Assembly (NCBI GenBank): GCA_900314495.1 | Contig: OMVJ01000021.1 | Location: 1-38,935, forward strand | DNA: 38,935 nucleotides | From: an uncultured Olsenella sp. | Lineage (GTDB): Bacteria; Actinomycetota; Coriobacteriia; Coriobacteriales; Atopobiaceae | Direction of reading: 5' to 3' | Part shown: positions 1 to 17,645 of the stretch, piece after piece | Position numbering within the stretch: the stretch's first letter is position 1 | Layout of the letters: the number at the start of each line of letters is the position of its first letter | Program-made: the position numbers and the translations under genes | The notes under the pieces: model-generated | Told to the model about the DNA's origin: nothing | Seen by the model: the letters and a program-made list of their open reading frames with translations, nothing else | Databases searched by the model: none

Positions 1-1530
<1,530 letters not shown>

Positions 1531-1532
1531 TC

Positions 1533-3492: not shown

Positions 3493-3495
3493 TCG

Positions 3496-3524: not shown

Positions 3525-3539
3525 GCTTTGGCACGTGTT

Positions 3540-3631: not shown

Positions 3632-3640
3632 GAGCATCCG

Positions 3641-3671
3641 CCTGCCATCTCAAAGAGGTGGCAGGTTTTTT
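3641..3671 (+). terminator. Intrinsic terminator after tRNA-Ser
   Basis: Arms CCTGCCA and TGGCAGG, with an inner CTC/GAG pairing, are followed directly by six T. Confidence 0.85.
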
Positions 3672-3746
3672 GTTGCCCCGCCAGGCCTCCAACCGCGCCA
3701 TGACCCAGCCGCCAGCGCACGTCTCAAATTTTTTCAAAAAAAATTC

Positions 3747-3776
3747 TTGACGTGAGCTGGTTGCAGGAGCAATATA
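3747..3776 (+). promoter_or_regulatory. Promoter of tRNA-Arg(ACG)
   Basis: TTGACG, then 18 bp, then AATATA (TATAGG is an alternative shifted by 2 bp). The tRNA starts about 12 nt later. An A/T tract lies just upstream, as in strong stable-RNA promoters. Confidence 0.5.
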
Positions 3777-3787
3777 GGAAGTCGCAA

Positions 3788-3864
3788 GCGGCCTTACCTC
3801 AGCTGGATAGAGGAACTGACTACGAATCAGTCTGTCGCGGGTTCGAATCCCTCAGGCCGCACCA
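3788..3864 (+). tRNA. tRNA-Arg(ACG)
   Basis: 77 nt. Acceptor GCGGCCT pairs with AGGCCGC, the anticodon loop CTACGAA carries ACG (wobble A, decoded as inosine if TadA acts), the T loop is GGTTCGAATCC, and CCA is encoded. A protein-coding frame on the opposite strand runs into it. Confidence 0.96.
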
Positions 3865-4311
3865 CGAATTCTCGGAGCCCCGTTTGGGGCTCCTTTTTTT
3901 GTTCTGCTTCCTCTCGCAGCTGTCCCACGCATAGGGACGGTAGGAGACGCCTGCGCCCGGGCTGTCGCACAAGTACGAATAGGTGACGCCACACCCGTCA
4001 AACACGTCCATGAGCTCAGAGAGGAAGCAGCCGTCCACACGGAAGAAGTCCGTCAGCTGTTCCGCCAAGCGATACCTCCCCCCATATGCCTGCCCCAGGC
4101 TTTGAGCCACAGCGGGCAAAGCCCCCTTGCCAATGTAGAGGCGCTGCAGGCGCGCGCCGCCGCCAAAGAACTCCCGCGTGAGCTCCCCCTCCGTGAGCTC
4201 GCTCACGGAAATTCCACCGTTCCTCTCGAACTGGCACCATACGGTGCGAGCCTCGCTCCCGTCGTCGGTCTTGAGCATCAGCCTTCCCGCGTAATCCTGA
4301 ACCTGGGCCAT
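3820..4311 (-). CDS. Hypothetical protein whose 3' end is antisense to tRNA-Arg
   Basis: 163 residues from an ATG at 4311 with GGAGG 6 nt upstream. I do not recognise a family. Residues 1-135 look like a compact mixed alpha/beta soluble protein with five cysteines (C26, C95, C107, C115, C132) and no signal peptide or membrane segment. From about residue 138 the chain is encoded by the complement of the tRNA-Arg terminator hairpin, and residues 150-163 by the complement of the tRNA itself; the stop lies inside the anticodon stem. The tail (KQNKKRSPKRGS onwards) is therefore probably accidental extension rather than a selected domain. Its own transcript has no terminator before the tRNA. Confidence 0.6.
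   Translation of the reverse strand: MAQVQDYAGRLMLKTDDGSEARTVWCQFERNGGISVSELTEGELTREFFGGGARLQRLYIGKGALPAVAQSLGQAYGGRYRLAEQLTDFFRVDGCFLSELMDVFDGCGVTYSYLCDSPGAGVSYRPYAWDSCERKQNKKRSPKRGSENSWCGLRDSNPRQTDS
3874..3900 (+). terminator. Intrinsic terminator after tRNA-Arg(ACG)
   Basis: A perfect 8-bp stem GGAGCCCC/GGGGCTCC with loop GTTT is followed by seven T. It acts only rightward; read leftward it has no T tract. Confidence 0.9.
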
Positions 4312-4448
4312 TCCGTCCTCCGATCTTCGCCTTCCTCTCTGTCCTCCTTGTACCCAGACTCCCCAATGTTTAGAACATTTGTTCGGACTATTTTGAAAAA
4401 TTCTTCTCGCGTCGCCGCGGGGTGCCCAGCCGCCCCCACCCCAAGCAC

Positions 4449-4482
4449 AAAAGGGAGGGGCCACGCTGCCGTGACCCCTCCC
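4449..4482 (-). terminator. Intrinsic terminator of serS
   Basis: On the minus strand GGGAGGGG-T-CAC pairs with GTG-G-CCCCTCCC around a 6-nt loop, followed by TTTTGTG. It begins about 55 nt past the serS stop codon. Confidence 0.8.
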
Positions 4483-4538
4483 CAAGACTTATGCCGTTCA
4501 GGGCGCGCCATTCCCCGCGCGCCACCTTTTACCTGCGC

Positions 4539-5825
4539 CTATGCCAGAGGCTTGATGACCTCCATGTCGCGCATGTAGGGACGCAGGGCCTCGGGCACCG
4601 TGATGGAGCCGTCGGCATTCTGGTAGTTCTCCATGATGGCGGCCATGGTGCGGCCCACGGCCAGGCCGGAGCCGTTGAGGGTGTGCACCAGGCGCGTTCC
4701 CTTGAACTCCGTGGGGTCCTTGTAGCGAATGTTGGCGCGGCGAGCCTGGAAGTCCCAGCAGTTGGAGCAGGAGGAGATCTCCTTGTAGTTGTTGTAGCTG
4801 GGCAGCCAGACCTCAAGGTCGTAGCACTTGGTGGCGCTGAAGCCAATGTCACCGGTGCAGAGGGTGACCACGTGGTAGGGCAGACCCAGGACCTGCAGGC
4901 AGTGCTCGGCCTCCGCGACCATGGACTCAAGCTGGTTCATGGAGTCCTCGGGCTTGGCGAACTTGACCATCTCAACCTTGTCGAACTCGTGCACGCGAAT
5001 GATGCCGCGCGTGTCGCGACCGGCAGAGCCGGCCTCCTCGCGGAAGCAGGGGGTGAAGGCGGTGTACCAAAGCGGCAGGTCAGCGCCATCAAGAATCTCG
5101 TCGCGGTGGATGTTGGTCAGCATGACCTCGGCCGTGGGGATGAGGTACATGCCGCCGGACACGTGGTAGAGGTCCTCGTCGAACTTGGGCAGCTGGCCCG
5201 TGCCGAACAGGGAGTCGTAGTTGGTGATGACGGGCGGCCACCACTCCTTGAAGCCGGCCTTCACGTGCTCGTCAATGAAGAAGTTGATAAGCGCGCGCTC
5301 CATGAGGGCGCCGGTGCCGCCCAGCAGGTAGAAGCGGGTGCCGGCCAGCTTGATGCCGCGGTCGAAGTCGATCATGCCCGTGGAAGGGCCAAGGTCCCAG
5401 TGGGCCTTGGGCTCGAAGTCGAACTGCGTGGGCTCGCCCCAGCGGCGGACCTCCGGGTTGTCGGAGTCGTCCTTGCCGTAGGGCACGGACTCGTGGGGAA
5501 TGTTGGGGATGGCGGCAACCAGGTCAAAGAGGTCCTTCTCCACGGCGGAACGCTTCTCGTTGAGCTCGGAGATGCGGTCCTTGTTGGCCGTGACCTGGGC
5601 CTTTGCCGCCTGAGCCTCCTCCTTCTTGCCCTGCTTCATGAGCAGGCCAATCTGCTTGGAGGCGGCGTTGCGGTCTGCCTGCAGCTTCTCGACCTCGGCG
5701 ATGACGGAGCGGCGCTCCTCGTCCAGCTCGAAGAACCTCTCACGGTCCCAGTGGGCGTTCTGACGGGACGCGCAGGACTTGTCCACGACGTCAGGGTTCT
5801 CACGAACAAACTTGATATCGAGCAT
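4539..5825 (-). CDS. serS: Seryl-tRNA synthetase
   Basis: 428 residues, normal length. It charges tRNA-Ser with serine through seryl-adenylate. The N-terminal part (about 1-100) is the long antiparallel coiled-coil arm that grips the tRNA variable arm, rich in Lys/Glu/Ala. The class II core follows: motif 2 in CFREEAGSAGRDTRGIIRVHEF, the serine-binding CTGDIGFSATKCYDLEVW, SCSNCWDFQARR, and motif 3 in LNGSGLAVGRTMAAI. The ATG at 5825 has a GAGAGG site upstream. The tRNA-Ser(GCT) gene 2 kb away is one of its substrates. No T-box-type leader is visible in the 135 bp upstream. Confidence 0.97.
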   Translation of the reverse strand: MLDIKFVRENPDVVDKSCASRQNAHWDRERFFELDEERRSVIAEVEKLQADRNAASKQIGLLMKQGKKEEAQAAKAQVTANKDRISELNEKRSAVEKDLFDLVAAIPNIPHESVPYGKDDSDNPEVRRWGEPTQFDFEPKAHWDLGPSTGMIDFDRGIKLAGTRFYLLGGTGALMERALINFFIDEHVKAGFKEWWPPVITNYDSLFGTGQLPKFDEDLYHVSGGMYLIPTAEVMLTNIHRDEILDGADLPLWYTAFTPCFREEAGSAGRDTRGIIRVHEFDKVEMVKFAKPEDSMNQLESMVAEAEHCLQVLGLPYHVVTLCTGDIGFSATKCYDLEVWLPSYNNYKEISSCSNCWDFQARRANIRYKDPTEFKGTRLVHTLNGSGLAVGRTMAAIMENYQNADGSITVPEALRPYMRDMEVIKPLA

Positions 5826-5890
5826 GTGTCTACCTCTCTATTACCCATCGGCCGACGCGCGCCGGCCTCCAGCGTCAAGCTCGTGCTACT

Positions 5891-5919
5891 TTTCGCCATA
5901 CGCTTTGGGAGTATATACT
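5891..5919 (+). promoter_or_regulatory. Candidate promoter of the 62-residue membrane protein gene
   Basis: A perfect TATACT box lies 17 bp after a weak TTTCGC. The start point would be about 36 nt before the ATG at 5962. Confidence 0.4.
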
Positions 5920-5961
5920 TGTACCCGCTTTGAACGGCATGCAGAAAGAAAGGCGCACTTC

Positions 5962-6150
5962 ATGAGCGCAATCACCGGCTTCTTCTCTTGGCTCTTCGGC
6001 ACCAGGACGGGCGTCATCTGGCTTGTCCTTGGCGGCGTTGTCTTCTTCCTCGTTGTTGCCTTCGTCCTTGAGCGCCGCACCCGCGCTGAGTTCTACAACC
6101 ACGAGAAGACGGAGGACGACTGGGACCTCTTTGACGACGATGACGAATAG
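5962..6150 (+). CDS. Small single-pass membrane protein
   Basis: 62 residues. An AAAGG site lies upstream of the ATG, and an intrinsic terminator follows, so it is a complete monocistronic unit. There is one membrane helix at about residues 17-38 (GVIWLVLGGVVFFLVVAFVL), then a basic stop-transfer stretch ERRTR, and a very acidic C-terminus ending in WDLFDDDDE. By the positive-inside rule the acidic tail is likely cytoplasmic together with the RRTR patch. I do not recognise a family and assign no function. Codon use is like its neighbours. Confidence 0.75.
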   Translation: MSAITGFFSWLFGTRTGVIWLVLGGVVFFLVVAFVLERRTRAEFYNHEKTEDDWDLFDDDDE

Positions 6151-6200
6151 GCACTGAGCAGGCAGACCTCTACGAATGATGGGACCAAACGCGAGGCCAA

Positions 6201-6232
6201 GGCGCTGCACCGGCAGGTGCGGCGCCTTTTTT
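6201..6232 (+). terminator. Intrinsic terminator after the small membrane protein gene
   Basis: The GGCGC-T-GCAC / GTGC-G-GCGCC stem encloses a 6-nt loop and runs into six T. Confidence 0.88.
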
Positions 6233-6277
6233 GTCGCCTGAACCGGGGCCGCTACGCCACTGTGGGTCCGGGCTGAT

Positions 6278-6505
6278 ACCCTCAGTCGTGATTCTGTGAC
6301 TTATGCACCTCGACCCCGATTACGGAATACCGGTTCAAATTCCATACCGCTTTTGACCTGCAGTTTTCTCAGAGGAAGTGACGGCACGGAATGCGATTCC
6401 CTACGGTGGGGAATAGGCATTTTTTGACTAGGCCATTTAACTGGGATGATAGCATGTAACGAACAAGACGCTGGGTACAAAAGTCGTAGAATCACGACTG
6501 AGGGT
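6278..6505. repeat. MITE-like 228-bp inverted-repeat element
   Basis: The ends are inverted repeats: the outermost 18 bp (ACCCTCAGTCGTGATTCT at the left, its complement at 6488-6505) are identical, and similarity extends to about 32 bp (28 of 32 matches; arms 6278-6309 and 6474-6505). The ~160 bp between carry no credible reading frame. I see no clear target-site duplication. It is the size and shape of a non-autonomous transposon, or of the joined ends of a deleted insertion sequence. It covers about half of the otherwise gene-free stretch between 6233 and 6589. Confidence 0.6.
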
Positions 6506-6588
6506 CTTGCCCCCACTCCAACCAGCGCCCATGAACCAAAGGCGCAACACAAAAGCACCGAGCCTTCCCCGCCAGGCTGCACGCAATA

Positions 6589-6624
6589 CAAGAACTCCCC
6601 CGCAGGCTCTTACCTGCGGGGGAG
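6589..6624 (-). terminator. Displaced original terminator of tRNA-Leu(CAG)
   Basis: A perfect 12-bp stem CTCCCCCGCAGG/CCTGCGGGGGAG with a 6-nt loop sits just outside the left attachment site; on the minus strand it is followed by TTCTTG. Before integration it would have lain right behind the tRNA-Leu 3' end, now 7.7 kb away. Confidence 0.6.
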
Positions 6625-6636
6625 TCCCTAACATTC

Positions 6637-6669
6637 ATGGTGCGGGCGAAAGGACTTGAACCTTCATGA
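6637..6669 (-). repeat. Left attachment site (tRNA-Leu 3'-end remnant)
   Basis: 33 bp identical to 14336-14368. It corresponds to the tRNA-Leu(CAG) 3' end from the T arm to the CCA, with no 5' half of a tRNA beside it. Identity stops on both sides (C versus A before, CG versus GA after), which fixes the core. Confidence 0.9.
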
Positions 6670-6690
6670 CGTTACCCTGCACACATACCC

Positions 6691-6797
6691 TCGCGGAATC
6701 TCATACCCTTACACACCGTTTCACCTGCGCATTTGCGGAATCTCGCGGAATCTCGCGGACTATAAGATTCTGTCGTTCTGTACCAGATTTGTACCAG
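6691..6797. repeat. Direct repeats near the left attachment site (likely integrase arm sites)
   Basis: GCGGAATCTC occurs at about 6693, 6735 and 6745. At 6777-6797 a 21-bp block with two TGTACCAG copies 11 bp apart is repeated exactly at 14233-14253 near the other attachment site. Lambda-type integrases bind such paired arm sites; the role here is inferred. Confidence 0.6.
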
Positions 6798-7376
6798 CTA
6801 AACGGAAAACTCTTGATGTATACGGCTGGAGGGCATTCAGAGCCTGACGCTCAGGCGCTCCTCAATGGCCTTCGCTCTCGCCAATGGGCAAATACCCATG
6901 CGACCCTGCGCGCGGGCCTTAGGCGGGCTCTCAGGGGCTCAAATCCTGAGCGCCAGTACGTTTGAATCGGCTGAATGGCGTTCGGCACGACTGACTAGGT
7001 ACCCAACATGTTCCCTCTGGAGCATACGCGGCGGATTTGAGGGGCGGCGTTCCCCCCTGCTGATTCCGTTCGGACGGTGTTTGTAGTGGGGGCGGTGACA
7101 CTCAGACCGTGGATGTTGCGCGCTCAACAAATAAGAACGAAAGCGAGTCGGAATCCAATCCCTGTGCGCCGTTCGGGCTGGGCGATTCCAAAGTGGGGTT
7201 TTGGGCGTCTGGGGTACTCGAAGTGGGACTGGGTTCTCGAAGTGAGACGGAAACCTCAGGCGCTCCTGCCGTGGTCATGGTCGGATGAGGGCAACGGCCA
7301 CGATCTGGATGAGAAATGACTTGGGCGAAGATGGGCTGTGAGGTACGGCGCGATTCGTTTCACGCGGGGGGATAAG

Positions 7377-7500
7377 AGACTGCGGCCGGGGAGAAGCGTC
7401 GAGCTGCATCCGCTCCCAACTTCTCAACGCCCCTGCCGTCACGCCCCCCCTCCTTTTTTTCTAAATAGGGAAAGACTGCGGCCGGGTAAGAGCTTCGAGC
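7377..7500. repeat. Duplicated 28-bp unit in the element's non-coding end
   Basis: Two copies starting AGACTGCGGCCGGG lie at about 7377-7404 and 7473-7500, 24 of 28 bases alike, 96 bp apart. Close by are GCGGCTCTCA tandem units (about 7571-7597) and TCGAAGTG copies (about 7218-7243). No credible gene was found between 6670 and 8088. Confidence 0.5.
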
Positions 7501-7716
7501 GAAGACCTGCCGCAAGATTCTGACGCCCCTCCCGCTTTCAGTGGGACGCTTGCCCATGCAAAACATCTTCGCGGCTCTCAGCGGCTCTCAGCGGCTCGGT
7601 GACCTACGGTGCTCCTGACGCTCGCGGTGCTCCAGCTCGCGGCGCGAGTCGAGGTCAGCGGCGGCGCTGCCGAACGTCGAGCAACGGCCTGAGCACTCGC
7701 GGTCATGCGGTCCTGA

Positions 7717-8044
7717 CTACAGTTTGAGCTACGGATTGGCTACAGATGCGAGCTGGGCCACACGTGCGGTGACCTGCGATTACTACGGGTGACCACACCT
7801 CTACAGATGTTTCCGACTTCCCGCACATTCACGTTACGCACCCCCCACCCACCTACCCACTCCCCCTACCCTCCTATATATCTCTCCAAAGTAAAAGTAT
7901 TGTAGATGTGTAGTAATCGAGGGCAAACGCCATGCCTGACCTGCGCAAACGCACTACTACAGATTGAGCGGCAAAGTGTGGTAATCCGTGGTCAATCCGT
8001 AGTCAGACGCGGCACAAAGAAGGAGGACGCCCTGAGGACGCCCT
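7717..8044. other. Candidate replication origin of the element
   Basis: CTACAGAT occurs three times in the same orientation (7740, 7801, 7957), with related CTACAG (7717) and CTACGG (7729, 7783). There follow a C-rich tract (about 7840-7872), an A/T-rich stretch CTATATATCTC...AAAGTAAAAGTATTG (7874-7902), AATCCGT-G/A-GTC twice (about 7982-8003) and an 11-bp tandem GAGGACGCCCT (8023-8044). It lies directly behind the primase-helicase gene, where the origin lies in many satellites and plasmids. Function is inferred from repeats and position only. Confidence 0.45.
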
Positions 8045-8088
8045 CCCCCTATCATCGATACACCCTCAATCGTGTGGCGTCCACGCGA

Positions 8089-10302
8089 CTACTCCTCGCG
8101 CATGACGTACCTCCTGAATGACCTGCCGCTGCTGTCCTTGCGCGTGACTGTCTTCAGCTCAGGCATGGCGTCCGACATCTTCCTGCCGAAGGAGACGGCG
8201 CTCCTAGGCGTGAGTCCAGAGTTCTCGCACCACGTCTTGTACCTCTGGTACACATCGTTGGTCGGCAGTCCGTCGAGGTCTCCAGCGTCGAGGGCGGTAT
8301 CCTCCAGCCACGCTTCAACACTGTCGTTCTCGATGCGGAAACGCTCCTTCAGCTCCTCAGCGGCCACGTTCGGCGTGAGCTCGCCACGCTCCAGCACGCG
8401 CTGGAGTCCAGTCACGGCGCGGACGAGAAGACGCTCAGACGCCCTCTCGGTGGTCAGCTTGCGGACGACAAACGGGTCAAAGTCGGGCGAGGTCTTCTTG
8501 AATTCGTGCGTGAACGGAATCGGGCTCAGCCTGCGCATGAATCCGAAGTTGTTCGACGCCACGTGCGGCATGACGTTGAAGCTGAAGACCATCGTGCAGT
8601 ACGGCGTAAACGTGACGCCACTCCTCTGCTTCACGTCTGAGTACATGGCACCTCCTGAGCTGACCTTCTTCAGGACGCTCTCCAGCTTGCGCGAGATTGT
8701 GTCTGAGGTGGCGTCATCACCTATGTTGGCGAGCTTGCCCATGAGGTTCAGGGCGGCAAAGCGTTGCTCCAGCTCGTCAGGCATGATAGCGGTGATGTTG
8801 TCCCCACCCAACGCGGTGCGCATGGCGGTCATCAACGCGCTCTTGCCGTTCTTGCCCTTGCCAGTCAGCGCGAATATGAATGGGAAGTCGTTGGACCGGA
8901 AGAGACACAGACCAATCATCTCCTCGATATCAGCAAGTGTGGCCTTGTTCCCGTCCGCGATTCTCTCCAGAGCGCGGTCCAGCTCCTCGCATTCGGCGGA
9001 AGGATTCCAGTCGTGCGGTACGGTGTTCGGAATCCTCAGGCTCTGCGAGTGCGGGACAAACTCCCCACTCTCCACGTCGAGGACGCCATTCCTGAATGAG
9101 ACGTACCTGGGGGATGCCTGAGGGTAGCGCGGCGCGCTCAGGTTGAAGAGTGACGTTACCTCGGTCCTAAGCTGCCGCTTGGCGTTGCCGTCGAGGGAGA
9201 TCACCTCGCGCTCAACGGCGTCCCACCCCACCTGATACATTCCGCTCCTGCCGCACACGGCGGGCATGCCGTCTATGAAGCATCCGCCACGCTCTGAGGT
9301 CAGCTTGCGGACGAGCTTCACGTGCTCGGGCTCTTGCTCGCGCTTCTCAGCGTTCTTGCCGCTCAGGGCCTTCTCGATGGTCAGCTCTCCATAGGTCGAG
9401 CTGCCGTGGTACTCGTCCCACTTGGCACGGTATAGTCCGCTCTTGCGGAAAACCCTATCCATCTGGGCGGCGTCACCTGTGTACTTGGCAATGACGTTGC
9501 ACAGCACGAGGTCACCCTCAGAGTGGCTGGAATGGCCGTCGAGGTCTCCACGCCACAGCGCGGGCTCGTCCTCTTTTACCTTAGACACAATGGCATCATC
9601 GGTCATTGTGGCCTTGGGCTTGGTCTTGGGCTTGCTCGCCTGAGCTGTCTTCTTCTTGCCGGGCTTGCCCTCCTTGGCCTTGGGTTTGAGATACGTCTGG
9701 TAGACCCTCCTCAGCACGGCGGATTCTGAAGCCTTGGCGAGTTCTAGCCGACTGCCGTTGAAAAGGTTGGTGGTCACTGTGAAGAAGCGGCCTGAGTCGT
9801 AAATCTCGAAATCGCCACGCTTGCAGGCGGTGAAGTCGCTGGGCTTCTTGCCCTCGAAGTAAAGGTGGAGTCCAGTACCAGACGGCGATATCTCACAGTA
9901 CGTGTGGCTATTGTCGGTAATCCACTGGAGCTCCTGCGGCAGCTTGCCGTCAGTCAGCACGTGGTCAATGTCGAGCCCGCAGAATTTGCCGCCGAACACA
10001 AAGCCTATGCCGTCCGCGCGGTACCTGCCGCTCTGGAAGGCATCCAGCGCGGTCTCGAAGTCACTCCACGTTGCAGATGCTCGCCTATTGCCCTCCTCAA
10101 CCTCCTCGGTGGTGTACTTGCGGTGCTCGGCCTTGGCTAGCTCCTTCACGGCTGGAGGAATGTCGATTGACTTGGCGCGGCGTCCGCTCTTCGGGTCATA
10201 CAGAACTTTTGTCTTCTTTTCTTCTCGCACCTCATACTTCCAGATGACCCACGAACGGGTATCGCGCATGGCCTGAGGGATGAATTCGGGGACGATCTCC
10301 AC
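8089..10302 (-). CDS. Primase-polymerase fused to D5/P4-type helicase
   Basis: 737 residues from a GTG at 10302, chosen because AGGAGG lies 8 nt upstream; a GTG three codons earlier would sit on that site. The N-terminal archaeo-eukaryotic primase (AEP) domain shows GLDIDHV (D111, D113), SPSGTGLHLYF (H146) and FEIYDSGRFFTVT (R172). A basic linker (about 205-235) follows. The C-terminal half is a D5-type N-domain and superfamily 3 helicase: Walker A GKGKNGKS (481-488), Walker B LANIGDD (about 524-530), then SSGGAMYSDVKQRSGVTF. Such proteins synthesise primers and unwind the origin of phages, satellites and plasmids. Its start follows the excisionase stop by 1 nt, so the two are coupled. Confidence 0.9.
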   Translation of the reverse strand: MEIVPEFIPQAMRDTRSWVIWKYEVREEKKTKVLYDPKSGRRAKSIDIPPAVKELAKAEHRKYTTEEVEEGNRRASATWSDFETALDAFQSGRYRADGIGFVFGGKFCGLDIDHVLTDGKLPQELQWITDNSHTYCEISPSGTGLHLYFEGKKPSDFTACKRGDFEIYDSGRFFTVTTNLFNGSRLELAKASESAVLRRVYQTYLKPKAKEGKPGKKKTAQASKPKTKPKATMTDDAIVSKVKEDEPALWRGDLDGHSSHSEGDLVLCNVIAKYTGDAAQMDRVFRKSGLYRAKWDEYHGSSTYGELTIEKALSGKNAEKREQEPEHVKLVRKLTSERGGCFIDGMPAVCGRSGMYQVGWDAVEREVISLDGNAKRQLRTEVTSLFNLSAPRYPQASPRYVSFRNGVLDVESGEFVPHSQSLRIPNTVPHDWNPSAECEELDRALERIADGNKATLADIEEMIGLCLFRSNDFPFIFALTGKGKNGKSALMTAMRTALGGDNITAIMPDELEQRFAALNLMGKLANIGDDATSDTISRKLESVLKKVSSGGAMYSDVKQRSGVTFTPYCTMVFSFNVMPHVASNNFGFMRRLSPIPFTHEFKKTSPDFDPFVVRKLTTERASERLLVRAVTGLQRVLERGELTPNVAAEELKERFRIENDSVEAWLEDTALDAGDLDGLPTNDVYQRYKTWCENSGLTPRSAVSFGRKMSDAMPELKTVTRKDSSGRSFRRYVMREE

Positions 10303-10303
10303 G

Positions 10304-10555
10304 CTACTCACCTCCTATGAAGTCGATAAGGGATTTCTTCGGGACGCGGATGACGCGACCAACGCGCACGGCGTAAAGCTCGCCACGCTTTATCAGCTCA
10401 CGCACGGTCTTCTCGTCCACCTGAAGCGCCTGAGCTGCCTGAGCGGTCTTCAGGATATCCGGGTACTCTGCAAACGGTACGTAGGGCGAAAAGCCCTCCC
10501 CACCATTGGCGGCAGGGAGGGCAACCTCAGCCCTATCAGAGCTGGAGGTAATCAA
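10304..10555 (-). CDS. Excisionase/AlpA-like HTH protein (TTG start)
   Basis: 83 residues. The C-terminal half is a MerR-like winged helix-turn-helix of the excisionase family: LKTAQAAQALQVDEKTVRELIKRGELYAVRVGRVIRVPKKSLIDF (residues 35-79), with the typical turn RGELYAVRVGR. The first 30 residues are disordered-looking. The start is TTG at 10555 with GAGGAGG 6 nt upstream; no ATG or GTG in frame is better placed. Such proteins bind near attachment sites to direct excision, or activate satellite promoters as AlpA does. It overlaps the upstream gene by 20 nt. Confidence 0.82.
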   Translation of the reverse strand: MITSSSDRAEVALPAANGGEGFSPYVPFAEYPDILKTAQAAQALQVDEKTVRELIKRGELYAVRVGRVIRVPKKSLIDFIGGE

Positions 10556-11015
10556 TCAGGGCCTCCTCACGCTTGATGTAGCGGGATGCGGGCTCTACCT
10601 CAATGAGGTCGAACATCGACGGTTCGAGCTTGATTTCCCACTCTGGATGGTCGCAAAGGAGCATCCGCTCGATGCACGGGACGTAAGCGTTAGGCATCTT
10701 GGGATATGCGCCACTGCCGTCCGTCACCAGATAGAATGTGTCGCGTACGTCCTGAGCGTACTTGTAGGGAGCGACGCGCCTACCCTGACGATGTGCCTGA
10801 GCGCACGGGAATGCAAAGCCATACACCGTGGCATCTTCATTGTTGCCAATCCAGATACCAACTCGATAACTGGTGTGGCTCGCCTTCTTGGTCTCCTCGA
10901 TGACCTCCTCAGGCGTAAGATGGTTCTGGGCGATATACACAGACGCCCTCTCTGCCCTGCTGCCGTGCTGACCTGCGAAATCGTCACGGCGGCGGGGATT
11001 CTTCTTTCTAGTCAT
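10536..11015 (-). CDS. Hypothetical protein of the element (159 aa)
   Basis: Start ATG at 11015 with GGAGGTG 6 nt upstream. I do not recognise a family. The N-terminus is basic and possibly disordered (TRKKNPRRRDDF), followed by a helix (HLTPEEVIEETKKAS) and beta-rich stretches (YRVGIWIGNNEDATVYGFAF, DTFYLVTDGSG, WEIKLEPSMFDLIEVEP). There are three cysteines and no signal or membrane segment. It overlaps its upstream neighbour by 8 nt and the excisionase by 20 nt, so it belongs to the translationally coupled element operon. Confidence 0.75.
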   Translation of the reverse strand: MTRKKNPRRRDDFAGQHGSRAERASVYIAQNHLTPEEVIEETKKASHTSYRVGIWIGNNEDATVYGFAFPCAQAHRQGRRVAPYKYAQDVRDTFYLVTDGSGAYPKMPNAYVPCIERMLLCDHPEWEIKLEPSMFDLIEVEPASRYIKREEALIDYLQL

Positions 11016-11268
11016 CGTTGCACCTCCAACCTTTTCCTCCAACCTCCCACAGCGTCTCAACGATGTGGGAAACCGTTGTGTCGAGACACCAGAGCAACTG
11101 AGAAGCAACCTTCACGTCATCACGAAGGTCATCCATGCGCGCCATAGTTGCCAGTTGCTCAGCTCGCGTAAGTGCGGCGTCCAGTTCGTTGTAGTTAGCC
11201 AGGTTGACGATGTGGCCGATTCTGGAAGCGGCATCCTCCATCTGGGCAAGAGCTTCAACGCGCTTCAT
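11008..11268 (-). CDS. Small helical protein B of the element (86 aa)
   Basis: Start ATG at 11268, overlapping the previous stop as TAATG, with GGAGGTGAGC upstream. Predominantly helical: VEALAQMEDAASRIGHI, ELDAALTRAEQLATMARMDDLRDDVKVASQLL. It is visibly related to the 85-residue protein encoded just upstream: ALAQM-[NE]-DAA, then NELDAALTRAEQLATMARMDDL against DELYGALEWAEDLAEKAGMEDL. The pair is therefore a tandem duplication that has diverged. Function unknown. Confidence 0.78.
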   Translation of the reverse strand: MKRVEALAQMEDAASRIGHIVNLANYNELDAALTRAEQLATMARMDDLRDDVKVASQLLWCLDTTVSHIVETLWEVGGKGWRCNDD

Positions 11269-11525
11269 TACTCGCTCACCTCCTTGGCTCGCATGTGGAG
11301 CATCATCACGACACGCCACTTGGCGTTCTGGGTGCGCTGGGCGAGGAGGTGCGCCTTCTGGGCGGCGTCCGCTAGGTCTTCCATACCTGCCTTCTCTGCG
11401 AGGTCTTCGGCCCACTCCAGCGCCCCATAAAGCTCGTCATCGTTCGACGCCACACTGATTGAGTCGGCGGCGTCATTCATCTGTGCGAGCGCAACATTGA
11501 GTCCCTTCCAGTTGACATTGCGCAT
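11268..11525 (-). CDS. Small helical protein A of the element (85 aa)
   Basis: Start ATG at 11525. The protein is helical and acidic in the middle ([36 protein letters not shown]) and ends in a helix rich in Met and Arg (WRVVMMLHMRAKEVSE). It has no transmembrane segment or known motif. It is a diverged duplicate of the gene directly downstream. Spacing to the upstream Cys-rich gene is 3 nt. The two could form a heterodimer; this is inference. No function is assigned. Confidence 0.78.
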   Translation of the reverse strand: MRNVNWKGLNVALAQMNDAADSISVASNDDELYGALEWAEDLAEKAGMEDLADAAQKAHLLAQRTQNAKWRVVMMLHMRAKEVSE

Positions 11526-11528
11526 TGC

Positions 11529-11711
11529 TTACATCTCCTCTGTCTCGATGACCTGAGCATCCTCAGGGTCTACCTCGAACGGGATGCAGCACGTGTAGTG
11601 CGCCATGAGCCCCTGATGCTCGTCTCCGGTTACCTCGCTCATGAGCGACCACGCGCACTCGCTGCCCTTGCAGTCGCTACGGCTGAGCGGGCAATACTTA
11701 TACGTGTTCAC
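11529..11711 (-). CDS. Cysteine-rich mini-protein of the element (60 aa, GTG start)
   Basis: Start GTG at 11711 overlaps the Xre-gene stop as TAGTG, with GGAGGTGAACGAGTA upstream. Five cysteines (C7, C14, C19, C41, C42) in YCPLSRSDCKGSECAW and HYTCCIPFEV could bind a metal ion. This arrangement is like small phage proteins that sense or chelate metal, but no family is recognised. The C-terminus is acidic (DPEDAQVIETEEM). Confidence 0.72.
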   Translation of the reverse strand: MNTYKYCPLSRSDCKGSECAWSLMSEVTGDEHQGLMAHYTCCIPFEVDPEDAQVIETEEM

Positions 11712-11920
11712 TACTCGTTCACCTCCTCAAAGAGCTCGTTCGGGTCACCCTGCCAGTCCAGCGCGGCAGCAATGCGCTTGCCACGATTCGGGTATGCGGG
11801 TTCCTTGCCGTTGACGATTCGATTCAGGTTCACCTGATTCACGTCAGCCATTCGTGCGAGCTGGGACTGGGACATATGGCGCTCTTCCAGCTCCTTCTTG
11901 ATGCGTAGCATGTTCTTCAC
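11711..11920 (-). CDS. Xre/Cro-type HTH regulator
   Basis: 69 residues, start ATG at 11920 with a GGAGGTG site. The HTH is LEERHMSQSQLARMADVNQVNLNRIVNGK (about residues 11-39): helix 2 SQSQLARMA, turn, recognition helix NQVNLNRIVNG. The C-terminal YPNRGKRIAAALDWQGDPNELF is typical of short Cro/C1 proteins. It is the first gene of the leftward operon and faces the integrase operon. It probably represses one or both promoters, as the master switch of the element (inference from position). Confidence 0.85.
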   Translation of the reverse strand: MKNMLRIKKELEERHMSQSQLARMADVNQVNLNRIVNGKEPAYPNRGKRIAAALDWQGDPNELFEEVNE

Positions 11921-11928
11921 CTCCTCCT

Positions 11929-11949
11929 CTATAGGCTCTAGTGGTATAG
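11929..11949. promoter_or_regulatory. Candidate operator of the Xre regulator
   Basis: A 21-bp imperfect palindrome with outer arms CTATA/TATAG centred on CTAG, 8 bp upstream of the Xre start. It overlaps minus-strand TATA-like boxes, so a bound dimer would block the leftward promoter. Confidence 0.35.
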
Positions 11950-11959
11950 TGCTCCTCAG

Positions 11960-11988
11960 TTGGCGGATACACTAACCCACACTTTTAA
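11960..11988 (+). promoter_or_regulatory. Candidate promoter of the integrase operon
   Basis: TTGGCG, 17 bp, TTTTAA; the ATG at 12011 is 22 nt after the -10 box. Short arms TGGCGG/CCGCCA (11961-11966, about 11989-11994) bracket it and may be a second operator. Confidence 0.4.
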
Positions 11989-12010
11989 CCGCCACACGTG
12001 AGGAGGAATC

Positions 12011-12952
12011 ATGAAGCAAGAGAAACCGACTTGGCGATTGAGGCTAGTGGATAGGAGCTACCTGAGCTTTGACACGCTCAGTGTCTACCGATTCCCACTC
12101 GCCTATGACGAGGAGCTGGAAGCGGTGTTCCCCGCGTACAACCCATTTGGCACGTATACGAAGGAGATCACCCTCGATGCTGAGTTCTACCTGCGCGAGC
12201 TGATGAACCTCGATGCCACGAACGAGAAGGAGATTCTTCGTTTCATGGATACCTGGGGGATGCTGACTTCCCCGTTCAGGTCACCACTGATTCCGGGTCA
12301 GGTGCTCAACGCGTCCATTGCCACACCTGAGGTTGAGGAGGTAGATGGTAAGCCTGTTGGTTATCCCGTTTCTACACCTGAGGCGTTCAGGAAAGCGTGT
12401 GACCTGCGCGACAAAATCAACGCACGTCATAACGGCGTATTGGCGCATGCACAGTTTGACTTCCCGCTGGAAACGTACAAGTTCGCCCCCATGCGGGAGT
12501 GCGTCCAGTCGGTCGAGTGGCTTCAGCAGACGATTGACTTTCTGGTGAGGATGAAGCGGGAAGGCACCTACGAAACGGGCGCTTACCTCGATATCGATGT
12601 TCGCAACGCGCGCGAGCACGTCATCACCATCAACAGGCTCGTCACTCCCTACTTCCCCCTGTCGGAAATCGTCACTCCCTATGACGAGAAGACTGCATCC
12701 AGCACGTCACGCGCCGTCACCCTGCCGCTCAGTATCGCGGTCCTTGCTCAACTAATCATTGGCCTTCGCTCAGATGACGGTTACCGCGTATGCCCTGAGT
12801 GCGGTCAGGTCTTCATGTACAAGCGCAACTCGAATGGCATCTCCTCGCGTGACCCACGCGCGCGCTATTGCTCAGCAGAGTGTCAGCGCGCATTCAATCG
12901 GAAGAAGGATGTTCGCAGGAATCACGCAAAGAAGAAGGAGGACCAATCATGA
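12011..12952 (+). CDS. Unknown protein with C-terminal Cys4 zinc finger, coupled to integrase
   Basis: 313 residues with AGGAGGAATC before the ATG. Residues 1-250 are mixed alpha/beta without a recognised domain, including a long aromatic-rich N-terminus and a helical centre (SVEWLQQTIDFLVRMKREG). The C-terminus has CPECGQVF (C261, C264) and ARYCSAECQRAFNRKK (C287, C291), a treble-clef-like zinc site followed by a basic tail, the layout of CGNR/SEC-C-type nucleic-acid-binding fingers. The stop overlaps the integrase start (ATGA), so the two are made together. A role in recombination or regulation is plausible but unproven. Confidence 0.8.
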   Translation: MKQEKPTWRLRLVDRSYLSFDTLSVYRFPLAYDEELEAVFPAYNPFGTYTKEITLDAEFYLRELMNLDATNEKEILRFMDTWGMLTSPFRSPLIPGQVLNASIATPEVEEVDGKPVGYPVSTPEAFRKACDLRDKINARHNGVLAHAQFDFPLETYKFAPMRECVQSVEWLQQTIDFLVRMKREGTYETGAYLDIDVRNAREHVITINRLVTPYFPLSEIVTPYDEKTASSTSRAVTLPLSIAVLAQLIIGLRSDDGYRVCPECGQVFMYKRNSNGISSRDPRARYCSAECQRAFNRKKDVRRNHAKKKEDQS

Positions 12953-14223
12953 AAGTACTGGGCGAGGGTTCGATTGTGGCTCTGGAGAAGCCTGAGAAGA
13001 CGTGCAAGAAGTGGCAACTTCGCGTTGCCGTTGGTCTCGATGCCTTTTCGGACACGTACAAGGTGAAGACGAGGAGGGTACGCGGCAGCAAGAAGACGGC
13101 TCGCATACTCCTACGGGAATTCATCGAGGAGCTGGAGGATGACGGCGCGGTGAGTTTCGACGCCGACAAAATCACTCTCGGCACGTTCGCCAAAGAATGG
13201 CTGGAGGAGCGGCGCACGTCCGTCAATCCGCCACGCGCGGGTACTCTGAGGAATGACGAGGTGAGCGTGAGGACCATCGACAATGCCATTGGCGGCGTCC
13301 GTCTTGCTGACCTCAACGCGCAGCACATAGCAACCTTCTACCGTGGCTTGGTCAGCGGTGAGACCTCGCTCTCTCGTAAGCCACTCTCTGGAGCGTCCGC
13401 GCACAAGAAGGCGGCAACCCTCCAGCAAATCCTAGATGTGGCAGTCAGAAGGCGTCTCATTCCCTTCAACCCATGCTCTTTGCTGGAGAAGAGTGAGCGT
13501 CCGAAGGTTGACACGCCTGAGCGCATGCCGCTGACTGACGAGGACGCCATGAAACTGATTGATGCCCTCTACGCGGGCGAGCCTGAGTCGCACACGATAG
13601 GCGCTCTCTTGGCTATTGAGCTCGGTTGTAGGCGTGAGGAGCTTCTTGGTCTCTCTTGGGGAGACGTTGACCTCCAGCACGGCATAGTCCATATCCAGCG
13701 CGCATACACTCAGGACGAGCTCCAGTTGATGCCCACAAAGTCAAAGATGGGAGACCGATTCATACCCATCTACGGCAGTCCGGTTCACAAGCGCCTGATT
13801 GAGTGGCGCGAGGTCCAGTCGCTCAGGCTGGAGAAGCTTGGGATGGGTCAGGACAACGCCACACCTGTTGTGACGAGTCGAGTCGGCGGGCGGATTGTCC
13901 CCAACAACTTCTATCGATGGTGGAGGAAGTATTGCGAGAAGTGCGGAATCGCCCCTTGCGGGCTGCACACGCTACGCCACACATACGCAACGGCATTGGG
14001 GAGGAGCAAGGTGGACCTGAAGACCATCCAGAAGCTCCTCGGTGACTCAACTGGAGCGGTTGCCCTGAACATCTATCAGCACTACGTTGAGCAAAACGGC
14101 GCGGATGCCATGAGTCTGGTAAGCGGTCTGTATCATGGCGGGCTCGCAAGCGGCGGCAATGGCGGCGCGAGTGGCTTCACGGCACTGGAGGAGCAAGCAC
14201 GTTTGCAAGTTATCCGCAGGTAG
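12949..14223 (+). CDS. int: Tyrosine recombinase (phage-type integrase)
   Basis: 424 residues. Start ATG at 12949 overlaps the upstream stop; GGAGG lies 6 nt before it. The N-terminal arm-binding domain (about 1-65) is an AP2-like beta fold, the SAM-like core-binding domain runs about 75-180 (TLGTFAKEWLEERR), and the catalytic domain about 190-390. Active-site residues: R228 in GCRREELLGL, K264 in PTKSKMGDR, H340 and R343 in LHTLRHTYAT, and Tyr376 in LNIYQHY. The usual second His (GHSS) is Asp366 (LGDSTGA), an accepted variant. The gene ends 110 bp from the tRNA attachment site and would integrate and excise the element. Confidence 0.95.
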   Translation: MKVLGEGSIVALEKPEKTCKKWQLRVAVGLDAFSDTYKVKTRRVRGSKKTARILLREFIEELEDDGAVSFDADKITLGTFAKEWLEERRTSVNPPRAGTLRNDEVSVRTIDNAIGGVRLADLNAQHIATFYRGLVSGETSLSRKPLSGASAHKKAATLQQILDVAVRRRLIPFNPCSLLEKSERPKVDTPERMPLTDEDAMKLIDALYAGEPESHTIGALLAIELGCRREELLGLSWGDVDLQHGIVHIQRAYTQDELQLMPTKSKMGDRFIPIYGSPVHKRLIEWREVQSLRLEKLGMGQDNATPVVTSRVGGRIVPNNFYRWWRKYCEKCGIAPCGLHTLRHTYATALGRSKVDLKTIQKLLGDSTGAVALNIYQHYVEQNGADAMSLVSGLYHGGLASGGNGGASGFTALEEQARLQVIRR

Positions 14224-14232
14224 AAAACCGTC

Positions 14233-14253
14233 TCTGTACCAGATTTGTACCAG
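14233..14253. repeat. Right-end copy of the 21-bp direct repeat (arm-type site)
   Basis: Exactly equal and same orientation as 6777-6797; it contains TGTACCAG twice, 11 bp apart. It starts 9 bp after the integrase stop codon. Confidence 0.6.
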
Positions 14254-14273
14254 TACAACTTTTTATCTAACAG

Positions 14274-14327
14274 AAAGAGCGTTTCCGTAGGTTGGTTTAG
14301 CGGCCTGTACCTGCGGAAACGCTCTTT
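14274..14327 (-). terminator. Element-borne replacement terminator for tRNA-Leu
   Basis: An 18-bp stem (arms 14274-14291 and 14310-14327, one T/G pair) with an 18-nt loop starts 9 bp downstream of the tRNA 3' end. On the minus strand it ends in CTCTTTCTGTT. It sits inside the element, so integration would supply a new hairpin in place of the one displaced to 6589-6624. Confidence 0.6.
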
Positions 14328-14335
14328 AAGTATCA

Positions 14336-14368
14336 ATGGTGCGGGCGAAAGGACTTGAACCTTCATGA
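14336..14368 (-). repeat. Right attachment site within tRNA-Leu
   Basis: 33-bp core identical to 6637-6669. It covers the tRNA-Leu 3' end, so the tRNA remains intact after integration. Confidence 0.9.
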
Positions 14369-14423
14369 GATTGCTCTCATACGGACCTGAACCGTACGCG
14401 TCTGCCAATTCCGCCACGCCCGC
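14337..14423 (-). tRNA. tRNA-Leu(CAG)
   Basis: 87-nt class II tRNA. Acceptor GCGGGCG pairs with CGCCCGC, the anticodon loop TTCAGGT carries CAG, the long variable arm is TGAGAGCAATCTCA, the T loop is GGTTCAAGTCC, and CCA is encoded. It is the integration target of the element. Confidence 0.96.
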
Positions 14424-14434
14424 GTGCGGGAGCT

Positions 14435-14464
14435 ATAGTACTACGAACGCGCCAGTGTTTTCAA
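14435..14464 (-). promoter_or_regulatory. Promoter of tRNA-Leu(CAG)
   Basis: Minus-strand TTGAAA and TACTAT are 18 bp apart; the start would be about 5 nt before the tRNA. It overlaps the region upstream of the divergent kinase gene. Confidence 0.6.
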
Positions 14465-14483
14465 GCAGAATTTTCTGGGTAAA

Positions 14484-16301
14484 ATGAAGAAAACTCACTG
14501 CCGCCCTCCGGCGCGACTCAAACGCACCACAACCAGATCTGGAGTCGCCTTGCTCTACCCGTCATCCACACAGAACGGTGTCACCCCGCCGCGCCCCCAA
14601 CCCGCGGAACAGATGATCCTGAACCGCTACCGCGTGCTCAGCTCCAACACGGAGGGCGGCTTCGGCACGGTCAACGTTTGCTGGGACACGCGGCTGCAGC
14701 GGCGCGTGGCCATAAAGACCATCCCTTTGCGCGTGAGCGGTGGCCCGGCCGTGCCCGTCTCCACCCTGGACGAGGCCCTGAGCGAGGCGCGCACCTCCAG
14801 CCTCCTGGCCCACCCCAACATCGTCACCGTGTACGACTTCGAGACGGACGGCAATGACTCCTACCTGGTCATGGAGTACGTTGACGGCCTCAACTTGGCA
14901 GACCTGCTGGCCCGGGTGGAGGGCGGCGTGCTCACCTTTGACGAGACCGCCCACGTGCTGCGCAGCGTTGCCGCCGCCCTGGCCTTCGCGCACGAGAACG
15001 GCGTCCTGCACCTGGACATCAAGCCCGCCAACATAATGATCGACCGCTCCGGCACGGTTAAGCTGGGCGACTTCGGCATGGCCACGCTGGCCTCGGCCGC
15101 CGGCTACGGCGGGGCCCGGGGCGGCACCGTGGGCTACATGCCGCCAGAGCAGATCGTGGGCGACCTGGTAGACGAGCGCACGGACATTTTCTCGCTCGCG
15201 GTGGTGGTCTGGCAGTGCCTGACGGGGTCCTGCCCCTTCTCGGCCCCCACGGCGGACCTGTCACTGCAGAAGCTAGAGCGGGGGCCAATCCCCGCCCTCT
15301 CCAAGGTGGAGCCAGCGCTGGCCGGCATGGTGGAGGAGACCCTCCTCACTGCCCTTGAGCCCAAGGCCTCCCAGCGCATGGTTGCCGTGGAGGACCTGGC
15401 GGAGCCCGTCATTGCCTACCTGGGAGACCCCCAGGAGGGCAAGGAGTCCCTGCACGACCTGATTGACCAGCCAGCCCCCGGGGACGAGCCGGAGGAAGAT
15501 GGCGTGGACGCCCCGGGGCTTCTTGAGCGTGCCCCCTGGCTTCCAGCGGTTGTGGAACGCGGAATCTGCGCCGTATGCGCCGCTGCCGTGTGCTTGCCGG
15601 CGCTGCGCGTGGTGCTAGGCGCAGACGTCACGCCCACCCTTGTGGGCCTTGCCGCCGTTGCCGCGGCAACGTGCGCCTGGCCGCCCCTGGGCGCACCCCT
15701 GGCGGCGGTTGCCATGGCCCTTGCCCTGGCGGTGGCCGGCGGCGCAGAGGCCTTGGCCGCCTGCCTGGCGCTTCTCCTTATATATGGTGCGTGGTGGGTG
15801 TACGCGGGCCGGAAGGCCAAGCTGGCCTCCGCCGCCCTGCTCCTGCCCTGCCTGCTGCCAGCCCCCAGCTCCGGCCTGGCGGGCCTGTGCCTGACGCCGC
15901 TTGCGGCGGGGCTCACGGGTGCTTTGGCCTGGCTCTTCCGCCTTGCCTTCCGGGCCTGCCAGGCGGCGGCGTTTGAGCCGGGCGCCCTTGTCGGCCTGCT
16001 GGCCTCCGCCGCGGCCGAGCCCACAAGCTGGGTCACGCTTGCCACCTGCGGGCTGGCCGCCCTGGCCTGCAGCGCCCTCTGCCAGCGCGGCAGCGTCGCG
16101 GCGGGCGTGGCCGGGCAGGTCCTGTGCCTGCTGGTTTTGGCTTGCGGTCAGCTTGGCCCAACGCTGATGGAGAATGCCGATATCTGGACCGCTCTCGCAA
16201 CGCCGTATATGGCTCTTGCGATACTCTTTACCGTAATTCTGTGTATAGTGACCGTCCTTGCGGGCCCATCTTCGCAGGGCCAGGAGGGTGATGATTTCTG
16301 A
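14484..16301 (+). CDS. Ser/Thr protein kinase with polytopic membrane domain (PknA-like position)
   Basis: Up to 605 residues. The Hanks kinase domain spans about residues 46-315: Gly loop NTEGGFGTVN, K78 in VAIKTI, C-helix E101, catalytic loop HLDIKPANIM (D178; Leu replaces the usual Arg of HRD), DFG at 196-198 and PPEQ. A short acidic linker (ADEPEEDG-like, about 335-350) leads to roughly eight Ala/Leu-rich membrane helices (about 360-597). There is no PASTA or other external sensor domain. The start is uncertain: the ATG at 14484 has no ribosome-binding site, a TTG at 14550 has GGAG 5 nt upstream, and an ATG at 14613 (MILNRYRV) fits the family N-terminus best. It leads the envelope-signalling operon and overlaps fhaA as TGATG. 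Confidence 0.9.
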   Translation: MKKTHCRPPARLKRTTTRSGVALLYPSSTQNGVTPPRPQPAEQMILNRYRVLSSNTEGGFGTVNVCWDTRLQRRVAIKTIPLRVSGGPAVPVSTLDEALSEARTSSLLAHPNIVTVYDFETDGNDSYLVMEYVDGLNLADLLARVEGGVLTFDETAHVLRSVAAALAFAHENGVLHLDIKPANIMIDRSGTVKLGDFGMATLASAAGYGGARGGTVGYMPPEQIVGDLVDERTDIFSLAVVVWQCLTGSCPFSAPTADLSLQKLERGPIPALSKVEPALAGMVEETLLTALEPKASQRMVAVEDLAEPVIAYLGDPQEGKESLHDLIDQPAPGDEPEEDGVDAPGLLERAPWLPAVVERGICAVCAAAVCLPALRVVLGADVTPTLVGLAAVAAATCAWPPLGAPLAAVAMALALAVAGGAEALAACLALLLIYGAWWVYAGRKAKLASAALLLPCLLPAPSSGLAGLCLTPLAAGLTGALAWLFRLAFRACQAAAFEPGALVGLLASAAAEPTSWVTLATCGLAALACSALCQRGSVAAGVAGQVLCLLVLACGQLGPTLMENADIWTALATPYMALAILFTVILCIVTVLAGPSSQGQEGDDF

Positions 16302-17644
16302 TGAACGTTCTTTCTGTCTTCGAGCAGCGCGTTGGCACACTGTTCACCGAGAAGGATGCCGGCGTGCCGCCCCTGCCCTTCAAGAAGCTGGGCAAGAAGT
16401 CCGTGCGCGAGATGGAGAGCGAGACCTTCGTCATCGACGGCGTGGACACCGCCCCCGCCCTGTACACCATTCTGGTCTCCACGGAGGACGACCAGGCCAT
16501 GCGCCCGCTGTACGTTGACATTGCGGACGAGCTTTCCTCGCTCATCGAGGCGCAGGCCAAGAAGCGCAGCTACTCCTTTGTGGGCAAGCCCCTTGCGCGC
16601 TTCATGGTGGACCCCAGCCTCAAGCACGGCAAGTTCGCCGTCTTCGCCGAGAACATAGACGCCCGCACCCTTGCTCGCCTGCGGGACGAGGAGAACCAGT
16701 TCCTGGGCATTGCCGTGCCACAGCCGGTGGTTTACCCGGCCTACGACGCCGCACCCACCGGCGGGGCCCAGCCCACGGACGACGCGGATGCCGGCCTGGA
16801 CATCATTCCCGAGGACGCGGCCGACCTGGTTGAGGAGCCCCTGGCGGCAGAGGTGCCGGAGGTCGTTCCCGCGGCCGCGGAGCCGGAGCCCGTGGCAGAG
16901 GTCCCCGCGCCAGAGGCCGAGCCGGAGCCCGCACCCGCGGAGCCCGCGGTTGAGGCCGAGGCCGAGCAGGTTCCCGAGGTAGCACCGGAGCCCGAGGCCC
17001 CCGCAGTGCAGGTTCCCGAGGTCGCACCGGAGGCCGAGCCGGCGCCCGAGCCTGTTGCGGCACCCGCCGCTTCCTGGGACGTTGACGGCCAGGGCGCCAC
17101 ACCGGTGCCCGAGGCACCCGCAGCCGAGCCCGAGCCCGCGCCCCAGGTGCAGGAGGCTGCCACCCCAGACTTCCTGAAGGCCGCATCCGCCGCCGTGGCG
17201 GACGCCCCCATGGCCGTGGCGCCCGAGGCTCCGGTGGTTCCCGCGGCGCCGGCCGTTGCGGAAGCACCCGCGGCCCCCGCTGCCCCCGCCCCCAAGCCGG
17301 CCCACGCCGCGCCGCAGTCCGCGCACATGGCGTCCACGCCCGAAGAGCCCACCACGCCCGCGACCTGCCTCCTCACGGACCAGGCCAGCGGCAGGCAGTA
17401 CGTCGTCACCCGCCCCAAGGTCCTCATCGGCCGCGAGCGCACGCCCGGCGGCGTGGTCCTGCACGACCCCAACGTCTCGCGCCGGCACGCGGAGCTCGCC
17501 CACAACGGCACCAGCTGGACCATCACGGACCTGCACTCCACCAACGGCACGCTGGTCAACGACATAGACGTGGACCAGTGCTCCCTGCGAGACGGCGACG
17601 TCATCACCGTCGGCCTCATAAACCTCTCGTTCAAGGAGGGCTAG
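16301..17644 (+). CDS. fhaA: FhaA-like protein: DUF3662 domain plus C-terminal FHA domain
   Basis: 447 residues. Residues 1-130 match the DUF3662 domain of mycobacterial FhaA (start MNVLSVFEQRVGTLFTEKD). Residues about 140-350 form a low-complexity Ala/Pro/Glu/Val linker with near-repeats of VPEVAPEPE type. The C-terminal FHA domain (about 360-447) has GRERTPGG, SRRHAEL and HSTNGTLVND, the phosphothreonine-binding signature. In mycobacteria FhaA binds phosphorylated envelope proteins such as MviN and is a PknB substrate. It has no membrane segment and is probably cytoplasmic. Translation is coupled to the upstream kinase by a 1-nt overlap. Confidence 0.9.
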   Translation: MNVLSVFEQRVGTLFTEKDAGVPPLPFKKLGKKSVREMESETFVIDGVDTAPALYTILVSTEDDQAMRPLYVDIADELSSLIEAQAKKRSYSFVGKPLARFMVDPSLKHGKFAVFAENIDARTLARLRDEENQFLGIAVPQPVVYPAYDAAPTGGAQPTDDADAGLDIIPEDAADLVEEPLAAEVPEVVPAAAEPEPVAEVPAPEAEPEPAPAEPAVEAEAEQVPEVAPEPEAPAVQVPEVAPEAEPAPEPVAAPAASWDVDGQGATPVPEAPAAEPEPAPQVQEAATPDFLKAASAAVADAPMAVAPEAPVVPAAPAVAEAPAAPAAPAPKPAHAAPQSAHMASTPEEPTTPATCLLTDQASGRQYVVTRPKVLIGRERTPGGVVLHDPNVSRRHAELAHNGTSWTITDLHSTNGTLVNDIDVDQCSLRDGDVITVGLINLSFKEG

Positions 17645-17645
17645 C

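Follow-up and report, generated by a model that had tools for sequence, protein, structure and literature searches.

A compact satellite-like integrative island in a tRNA-Leu(CAG) gene of an uncultured Olsenella sp. and its relatives among tRNA islands of Coriobacteriia

The element and its integration site

The stretch of DNA analysed here, termed the window, comprises 38,935 nucleotides of an uncultured Olsenella sp. (contig OMVJ01000021.1 of assembly GCA_900314495.1). It contains a mobile element of 7,699 bp, which is inserted in a tRNA-Leu(CAG) gene and bounded by exact 33-bp direct repeats. The left copy (attL, 6637-6669), detected by a repeat search, marks the distal end of the element and duplicates the 3' end of the tRNA gene. 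The right copy (attR, 14336-14368) is the intact tRNA 3' end, since the target gene was called at 14337-14423 on the minus strand (Rfam RF00005). The two copies agree in 33 of 33 bases and in 90% of the positions over 42 nt, and they are spaced by 7,699 bp. These repeats had already been named in a preliminary description of this DNA, which stated as a possible refutation an unoccupied site in relatives that deviates from the predicted junction. Such unoccupied sites exist and match the prediction in seven relatives, of which G001 and G002 belong to the same genus and G018, G032, G239, G211 and G026 to the same family. There, the element is absent, and only a single copy of the tRNA 3' end separates the serS-side flank from that with the Ser/Thr-kinase gene. 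Because the site is uninterrupted and carries one copy in all seven, the 33-bp repeat is an attachment site and not a chance similarity; the element was precisely inserted into tRNA-Leu(CAG).

Two observations concern the neighborhood of this site. Outside the element, the segment from serS to the repeat is about 300 bp longer in the window than in congeners. The extra DNA contains, just outside attL, a 32-nt imperfect inverted repeat (88%, 164 nt apart; 6278-6505), possibly a small MITE-like insertion. In another genome, an element with a different integrase occupies this tRNA-Leu(CAG) site, again beside the kinase gene (L082, G017:C113:1-12000, positions 1-3719); it carries the small core protein family introduced below and is cut by the end of the contig.

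Genes, control regions and putative origin

The gene content is limited to functions for insertion, excision and self-copying, plus regulators and small proteins. The plus-strand operon consists of two genes, which overlap by the four letters ATGA (12949-12952), i. e. the stop codon of the first and the start codon of the second. The second gene (12949-14223) encodes the tyrosine integrase expected from the preliminary description (PF00589, E-value 9.5e-19). Its catalytic residues R228, K264, H340, R343 and Y376 are retained; at position 366, also a catalytic position, it possesses an aspartate, where 12 of 13 sister proteins have a histidine, and judged from the sequence this exchange could lower the activity of the enzyme. 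The first gene (12011-12952), not singled out before, encodes a 313-residue protein with a C-terminal zinc-finger-like motif of four cysteines, which are invariant in the alignment of its sisters. In the following, this integrase partner is named Zn-ORF. Its AlphaFold model has a mean pLDDT of 48, which is low and makes it unfit for a fold comparison, and a profile search against the sequences of solved structures gave weak zinc-finger matches only.

About 100 bp inside either end of the element, at 6777-6797 and 14233-14253, lies the 21-bp sequence TCTGTACCAGATTTGTACCAG, in which a short motif is doubled; the window contains no further exact copy. Given this arrangement, the two copies presumably are the left and right arm-type sites that are expected for tyrosine integrases.

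The minus-strand operon begins with an Xre/Cro-type regulator (11711-11920, HTH_3), transcribed divergently from the Zn-ORF/integrase operon, which bears out the divergent switch proposed previously. It is followed by a cysteine-rich protein of 60 residues (11529-11711, an ORF call), two paralogous proteins of 85 (11268-11525) and 86 residues (11008-11268) with 47% identity over 53 residues, a small protein with the C-terminus PSMFD (10536-11012; its start codon is uncertain), an HTH_17 protein of the excisionase/AlpA type (10304-10555; PF12728, 3.8e-12; TIGR01764), again as anticipated, and the primase-helicase. The whole region 10536-11711 had been regarded as cargo. This does not hold for the gene at 10536-11012: a profile built from sister proteins, with the focal protein left out, recognized it among the ORFs of the window with an E-value of 1.2e-8 (next ORF 0.81), so it belongs to a shared core. 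Cargo is thus confined to 11008-11711 at most, where the 60-, 85- and 86-residue proteins are possible accessory genes. For the 60-residue protein, no family match was found in Pfam, PHROGs, NCBIfam or models of anti-phage defence; the defence models matched the ORFs of the element only weakly, via HTH domains. Scans for sigma-70 promoters and terminators performed no better than on shuffled sequence.

The largest gene (8089-10311, minus strand) encodes the predicted primase-polymerase with an SF3 helicase, 740 residues in length. Searches of Pfam, PHROGs and NCBIfam assigned to it an NrS-1-type HBD (PF22763), D5_N, DUF5906 (PF19263) and Pox_D5 as well as TIGR01613, and the motifs GLDIDH, GKGKNGKS and NIGDDA are present. 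Downstream of its 3' end, the region 6670-8088 contains no convincing gene; at 7713-8006, iterons of the form (A/G)CTAC(A/G)GATTG are arranged in inverted clusters, which flank a pyrimidine-rich/AT stretch. Four ACTACRGATTG-like iterons lie within 7716-8003, a number that none of 100 shuffled versions of the whole window reached. Their number and arrangement support the earlier proposal of an origin, and the region is likely the replication origin.

The absence of capsid, terminase and conjugation genes, stated in the preliminary description, was confirmed: in Pfam, PHROGs, NCBIfam and the defence models, no ORF of the element matched a capsid, terminase, relaxase or conjugation/transfer domain. 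For TerS in particular, Pfam, PHROGs and NCBIfam gave no match, and neither a cos or pac site nor a capsid-remodelling gene was found in the element; note that recognition of cos would require the sequence of a helper. A conjugative element was rejected, as no Mob or T4SS genes were found.

Relatives among prophages and tRNA islands

The closest relatives of integrase and primase within the class share roughly 33-45% identity. Most of the respective loci are full prophages, in which TerL is located about 4-5 kb from the primase, followed by the portal gene where the contig permits. In siphophage prophages of Coriobacteriia (e. g. in G319, G254 and G245), the integrase is related at about 33% and the N-terminal domain of the primase at about 45%; TerL and portal are present there, whereas the focal element is devoid of structural genes. 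Three loci from the genome searches with integrase and primase, L075, L084 and L085, were rejected as sister satellites, since TerL and portal identify them as prophages; the contig of a fourth, L069, is short and resembles part of a phage. On a further contig of 66.6 kb (L072, G315:C138), the primase match occurs twice in identical form, at a distance of 47,043 bp, as would result if the assembly ran around a phage genome more than once.

As the nearest relatives are mostly prophages, the replication and integration genes have to be considered common to phages, which raises the question whether the element is a remnant prophage, i. e. a Coriobacteriia siphophage reduced to its early half (integrase, regulators, primase), whose late genes between primase and attL were lost and left 1.4 kb of non-coding DNA behind. 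The spacing of primase and TerL in the related prophages, the lack of a convincing gene in exactly this region and the altered catalytic position of the integrase are in line with such a decay. On the other hand, every ORF of the element is intact and tightly packed, the non-coding region possesses ordered iterons, and Zn-ORF, Xre and the small core protein have their counterparts in compact islands, not in the prophages related by integrase and primase. Moreover, a tblastn search with Zn-ORF among 50,697 phage records found no match. We therefore consider a remnant prophage unlikely. Further searches returned no viral relative: primase, integrase and Zn-ORF as queries found no close relative in viral contigs, primase as a direct query found none in viral and genome contigs, and no close copy of the element was found in viral contigs or in phage or plasmid records. 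In the host genome, neither an HK97 capsid nor a phrog_2 terminase was found, so no resident helper was seen with respect to these two families.

The compact islands came into view via Zn-ORF. A profile search detected homologues in 26 of 398 genomes of the class; many of them are located directly upstream of a related integrase and adjoin a tRNA gene. Most of these tRNA islands also possess a divergent Xre regulator and/or an excisionase, and the conserved small protein recurs as well. Profiles that excluded the focal proteins (14 sisters in the case of Zn-ORF) retrieved from the window Zn-ORF with 5.4e-33, Xre with 3.1e-25 and the small protein with the E-value given above, the next best ORF reaching no better than 0.5. 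Ten sister islands were delimited across Coriobacteriia, which span 4.8-11.2 kb and are bounded by repeats of 37-65 bp. Five are inserted in tRNA-Thr: G243 (5,964 bp), G258 (6,700 bp), G074 (7,456 bp), G280 (6,761 bp) and G385 (4,840 bp), the last with a split integrase. G407 (8,604 bp) occupies tRNA-Leu(CAG), G130 (8,283 bp; L156, G130:C6:9000-28999, positions 2276-10613) tRNA-Leu(CAA), G346 (11,203 bp; L160, G346:C5:4000-23999, positions 1327-12594) tRNA-Val, G270 (6,249 bp) tRNA-Pro and G150 (5,433 bp) tRNA-Met. Arm-type repeats of the same design and at the same place as in the focal element, with differing sequences of 20-23 bp, were found in six of the ten; those of the remaining four are shorter. 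The focal element shares with these islands a zinc-finger ORF directly upstream of the integrase, attachment repeats at a tRNA 3' end, and arm doublets that lie within the element near each repeat. By their control and integration genes, these compact tRNA islands form a recurring family. Zn-ORF adjoins a related integrase also in a few other Actinomycetota (G469, G529, G611); in some genomes of the class, it occurs without an adjacent integrase and next to mobilisation genes.

The replication modules of these islands vary. The primase-helicase of the focal element is replaced by a DnaD-like loader in G270 and by a DnaG-like primase in G158; AAA_25 ATPases are encoded in G407 and G158. The island of G270 harbors a TerS-like gene (phrog_2538, 3.1e-4), and that of G130 an HK97 capsid gene (PF05065, 5.8e-34) as its only recognized structural gene. 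Among the 61 proteins of the focal element and its ten sisters, there is one capsid and no portal or large-terminase family, considering the 25 PHROG families with the most matches, out of 85, and all Pfam matches. The phage-type character of the modules (primase, DnaD-like and DnaG-like proteins), together with the TerS-like gene and the capsid gene, supports the interpretation as a satellite.

The preliminary description had suggested a search for sister elements with the same integrase and primase, and had stated that sisters with relaxase or capsid genes would refute it. This condition applies in part. By integrase and primase, the nearest loci are mostly the full prophages described above; it is via Zn-ORF and integrase that compact sisters without phage structural clusters were found, and of these G130 has a lone capsid gene and G346 has mobilisation genes. 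In detail, the island of G346 encodes MobC/NikA, a C5 methylase, an EcoRII-type restriction system, Vsr and DUF6119, and some further islands with the Zn-ORF/integrase pair contain large restriction-like genes. As these carriers demonstrate, the cassette is not specific to satellites. They also fit an alternative in which the element is an autonomous or mobilizable integrative island that is transferred by conjugation in trans (as an IME with oriT only) or by generalised transduction, and the lack of a packaging gene in the focal element agrees with this. However, the focal element possesses no relaxase, MobC or other Mob protein, its primase-helicase and regulators are of the phage type, and TerS-like and capsid genes occur among its sisters, which makes this alternative improbable.

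Comparison with known satellites and interpretation

In gene content, the element resembles the PICMI of Vibrionaceae, whose model core consists of an integrase, an HTH_17/AlpA protein and a DUF5906 primase (PMC10803314). All three (PF00589, PF12728, PF19263) are co-located in the focal element, which is similarly small (7.7 kb versus 6.1 kb of the prototype), has a large non-coding region and is free of capsid genes. In many PICMI subfamilies, a gene overlaps the integrase gene, most often by ATGA (PMC10803314); Zn-ORF occupies the same place as this gene (iolg), a likeness of position. In contrast to PICMI, for which integration at fis was termed a hallmark, the element uses tRNA-Leu(CAG), its primase is devoid of DUF3987, it has an Xre-type divergent switch and it resides in an actinomycetotal host.

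PICIs are defined by an integrase, a replication module and a master regulator in conserved order (PMC6092414); the core of Gram-negative PICIs comprises integrase, AlpA and primase with the origin downstream (PMC10111431, PMC6092414). With SaPI-type and Gram-negative PICIs, the element has in common the integrase, the divergent regulator, the excisionase and the primase module with a downstream origin, the conserved order of integrase, replication module and regulator, and the absence of phage structural and lytic genes. It could therefore be a true PICI, a narrower form of our interpretation, whose TerS or cos site escaped recognition; TerS is also missing in some PICIs such as EcCICFT073 (PMC10111431, PMC6092414). 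However, with 7,699 bp (4.8-11.2 kb in the sisters) it has about half the usual size of 12-15 kb, and neither a recognized terS or cos, nor a known interference gene or other PICI-specific gene, nor a known helper was found, so we regard this assignment as quite improbable. According to a further PICI criterion, the attachment sites are never occupied by prophages; tRNA-Leu(CAG) is also used by the G407 island and by the truncated element in G017. Of the phage-inducible layout claimed in the preliminary description, the satellite-like gene order, the precise integration and the sisters without structural clusters stand; membership in the PICIs is not supported by the size, and neither TerS or cos nor a helper was found.

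Two further groups were rejected. P4-like satellites likewise integrate into tRNA genes and possess a P4-family primase-helicase (TIGR01613), the only component that matched; in Pfam, PHROGs and NCBIfam, the element showed no homologue of psu, delta, sid or ogr. With cfPICIs, it shares the combination of integrase and primase, but not portal, capsid, protease, TerS and TerL. A cfPICI candidate was noticed in the same bacterial family: it covers 14.1 kb at tRNA-Val (L078, G273:C13:5000-24999, positions 4645-18754), is bounded by 45-bp repeats and encodes, as read from its ORFs, int, xis, primase, portal, protease, capsid, connector, TerS-like and TerL-like proteins and no tail genes. Because each set of criteria describes the element only in part, we assign it neither to the PICIs nor to the PICMI and name it a satellite-like integrative island.

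Taken together, we favor the interpretation that the element is a small integrative mobile island, which probably works like a minimal phage satellite. Several results speak against it: the prophage context of most of the closest integrase and primase relatives, Asp366 of the integrase, the lack of matches to TerS, cos/pac and capsid-remodelling genes in the element and to the two helper families searched in the host genome, the searches of viral contigs, which gave no close relative, and the occurrence of the Zn-ORF/integrase cassette together with mobilisation or restriction-like genes. Integration is documented by the empty sites; the steps from induction onward are a proposal. Xre would repress the operon of xis and primase and possibly also control the divergent Zn-ORF/integrase operon, until an external signal, probably from a helper phage, induces the element. 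The HTH_17 protein and the integrase, with the zinc-finger protein as its likely partner, would then excise the element as a circle by recombining the 33-bp core with the aid of the two arm-site doublets. According to deletion data from PICMI, excision depends on the integrase, the overlapping gene and alpA, and replication on the primase (PMC10803314); by analogy, the same roles may apply here. The primase-helicase would initiate replication at the iteron region, and the DNA would leave the cell inside particles of the helper phage.

For the family as a whole, the islands constitute a widespread and apparently undescribed group of minimal elements, some members resembling virus parasites. More tentatively, and with somewhat less than even confidence, they could be a minimal-satellite family at the level of the phylum, present in Coriobacteriia and other Actinomycetota, in which the integrase has a dedicated zinc-finger partner, the replication module is exchangeable and some members also carry a TerS-like or lone capsid gene. 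Most known satellites come from Firmicutes, Proteobacteria and marine bacteria, and full-text literature searches found no report of satellites in Coriobacteriia, a common class of gut bacteria with few genetic tools. A family with empty sites, attachment sequences and a conserved integrase partner offers testable elements for this class; it may be a reservoir of phage defence and supply tools for site-specific integration in these hosts. Finally, the uncharacterised zinc-finger partner of the integrase poses a concrete question, namely how the direction of excision is controlled in minimal satellites.
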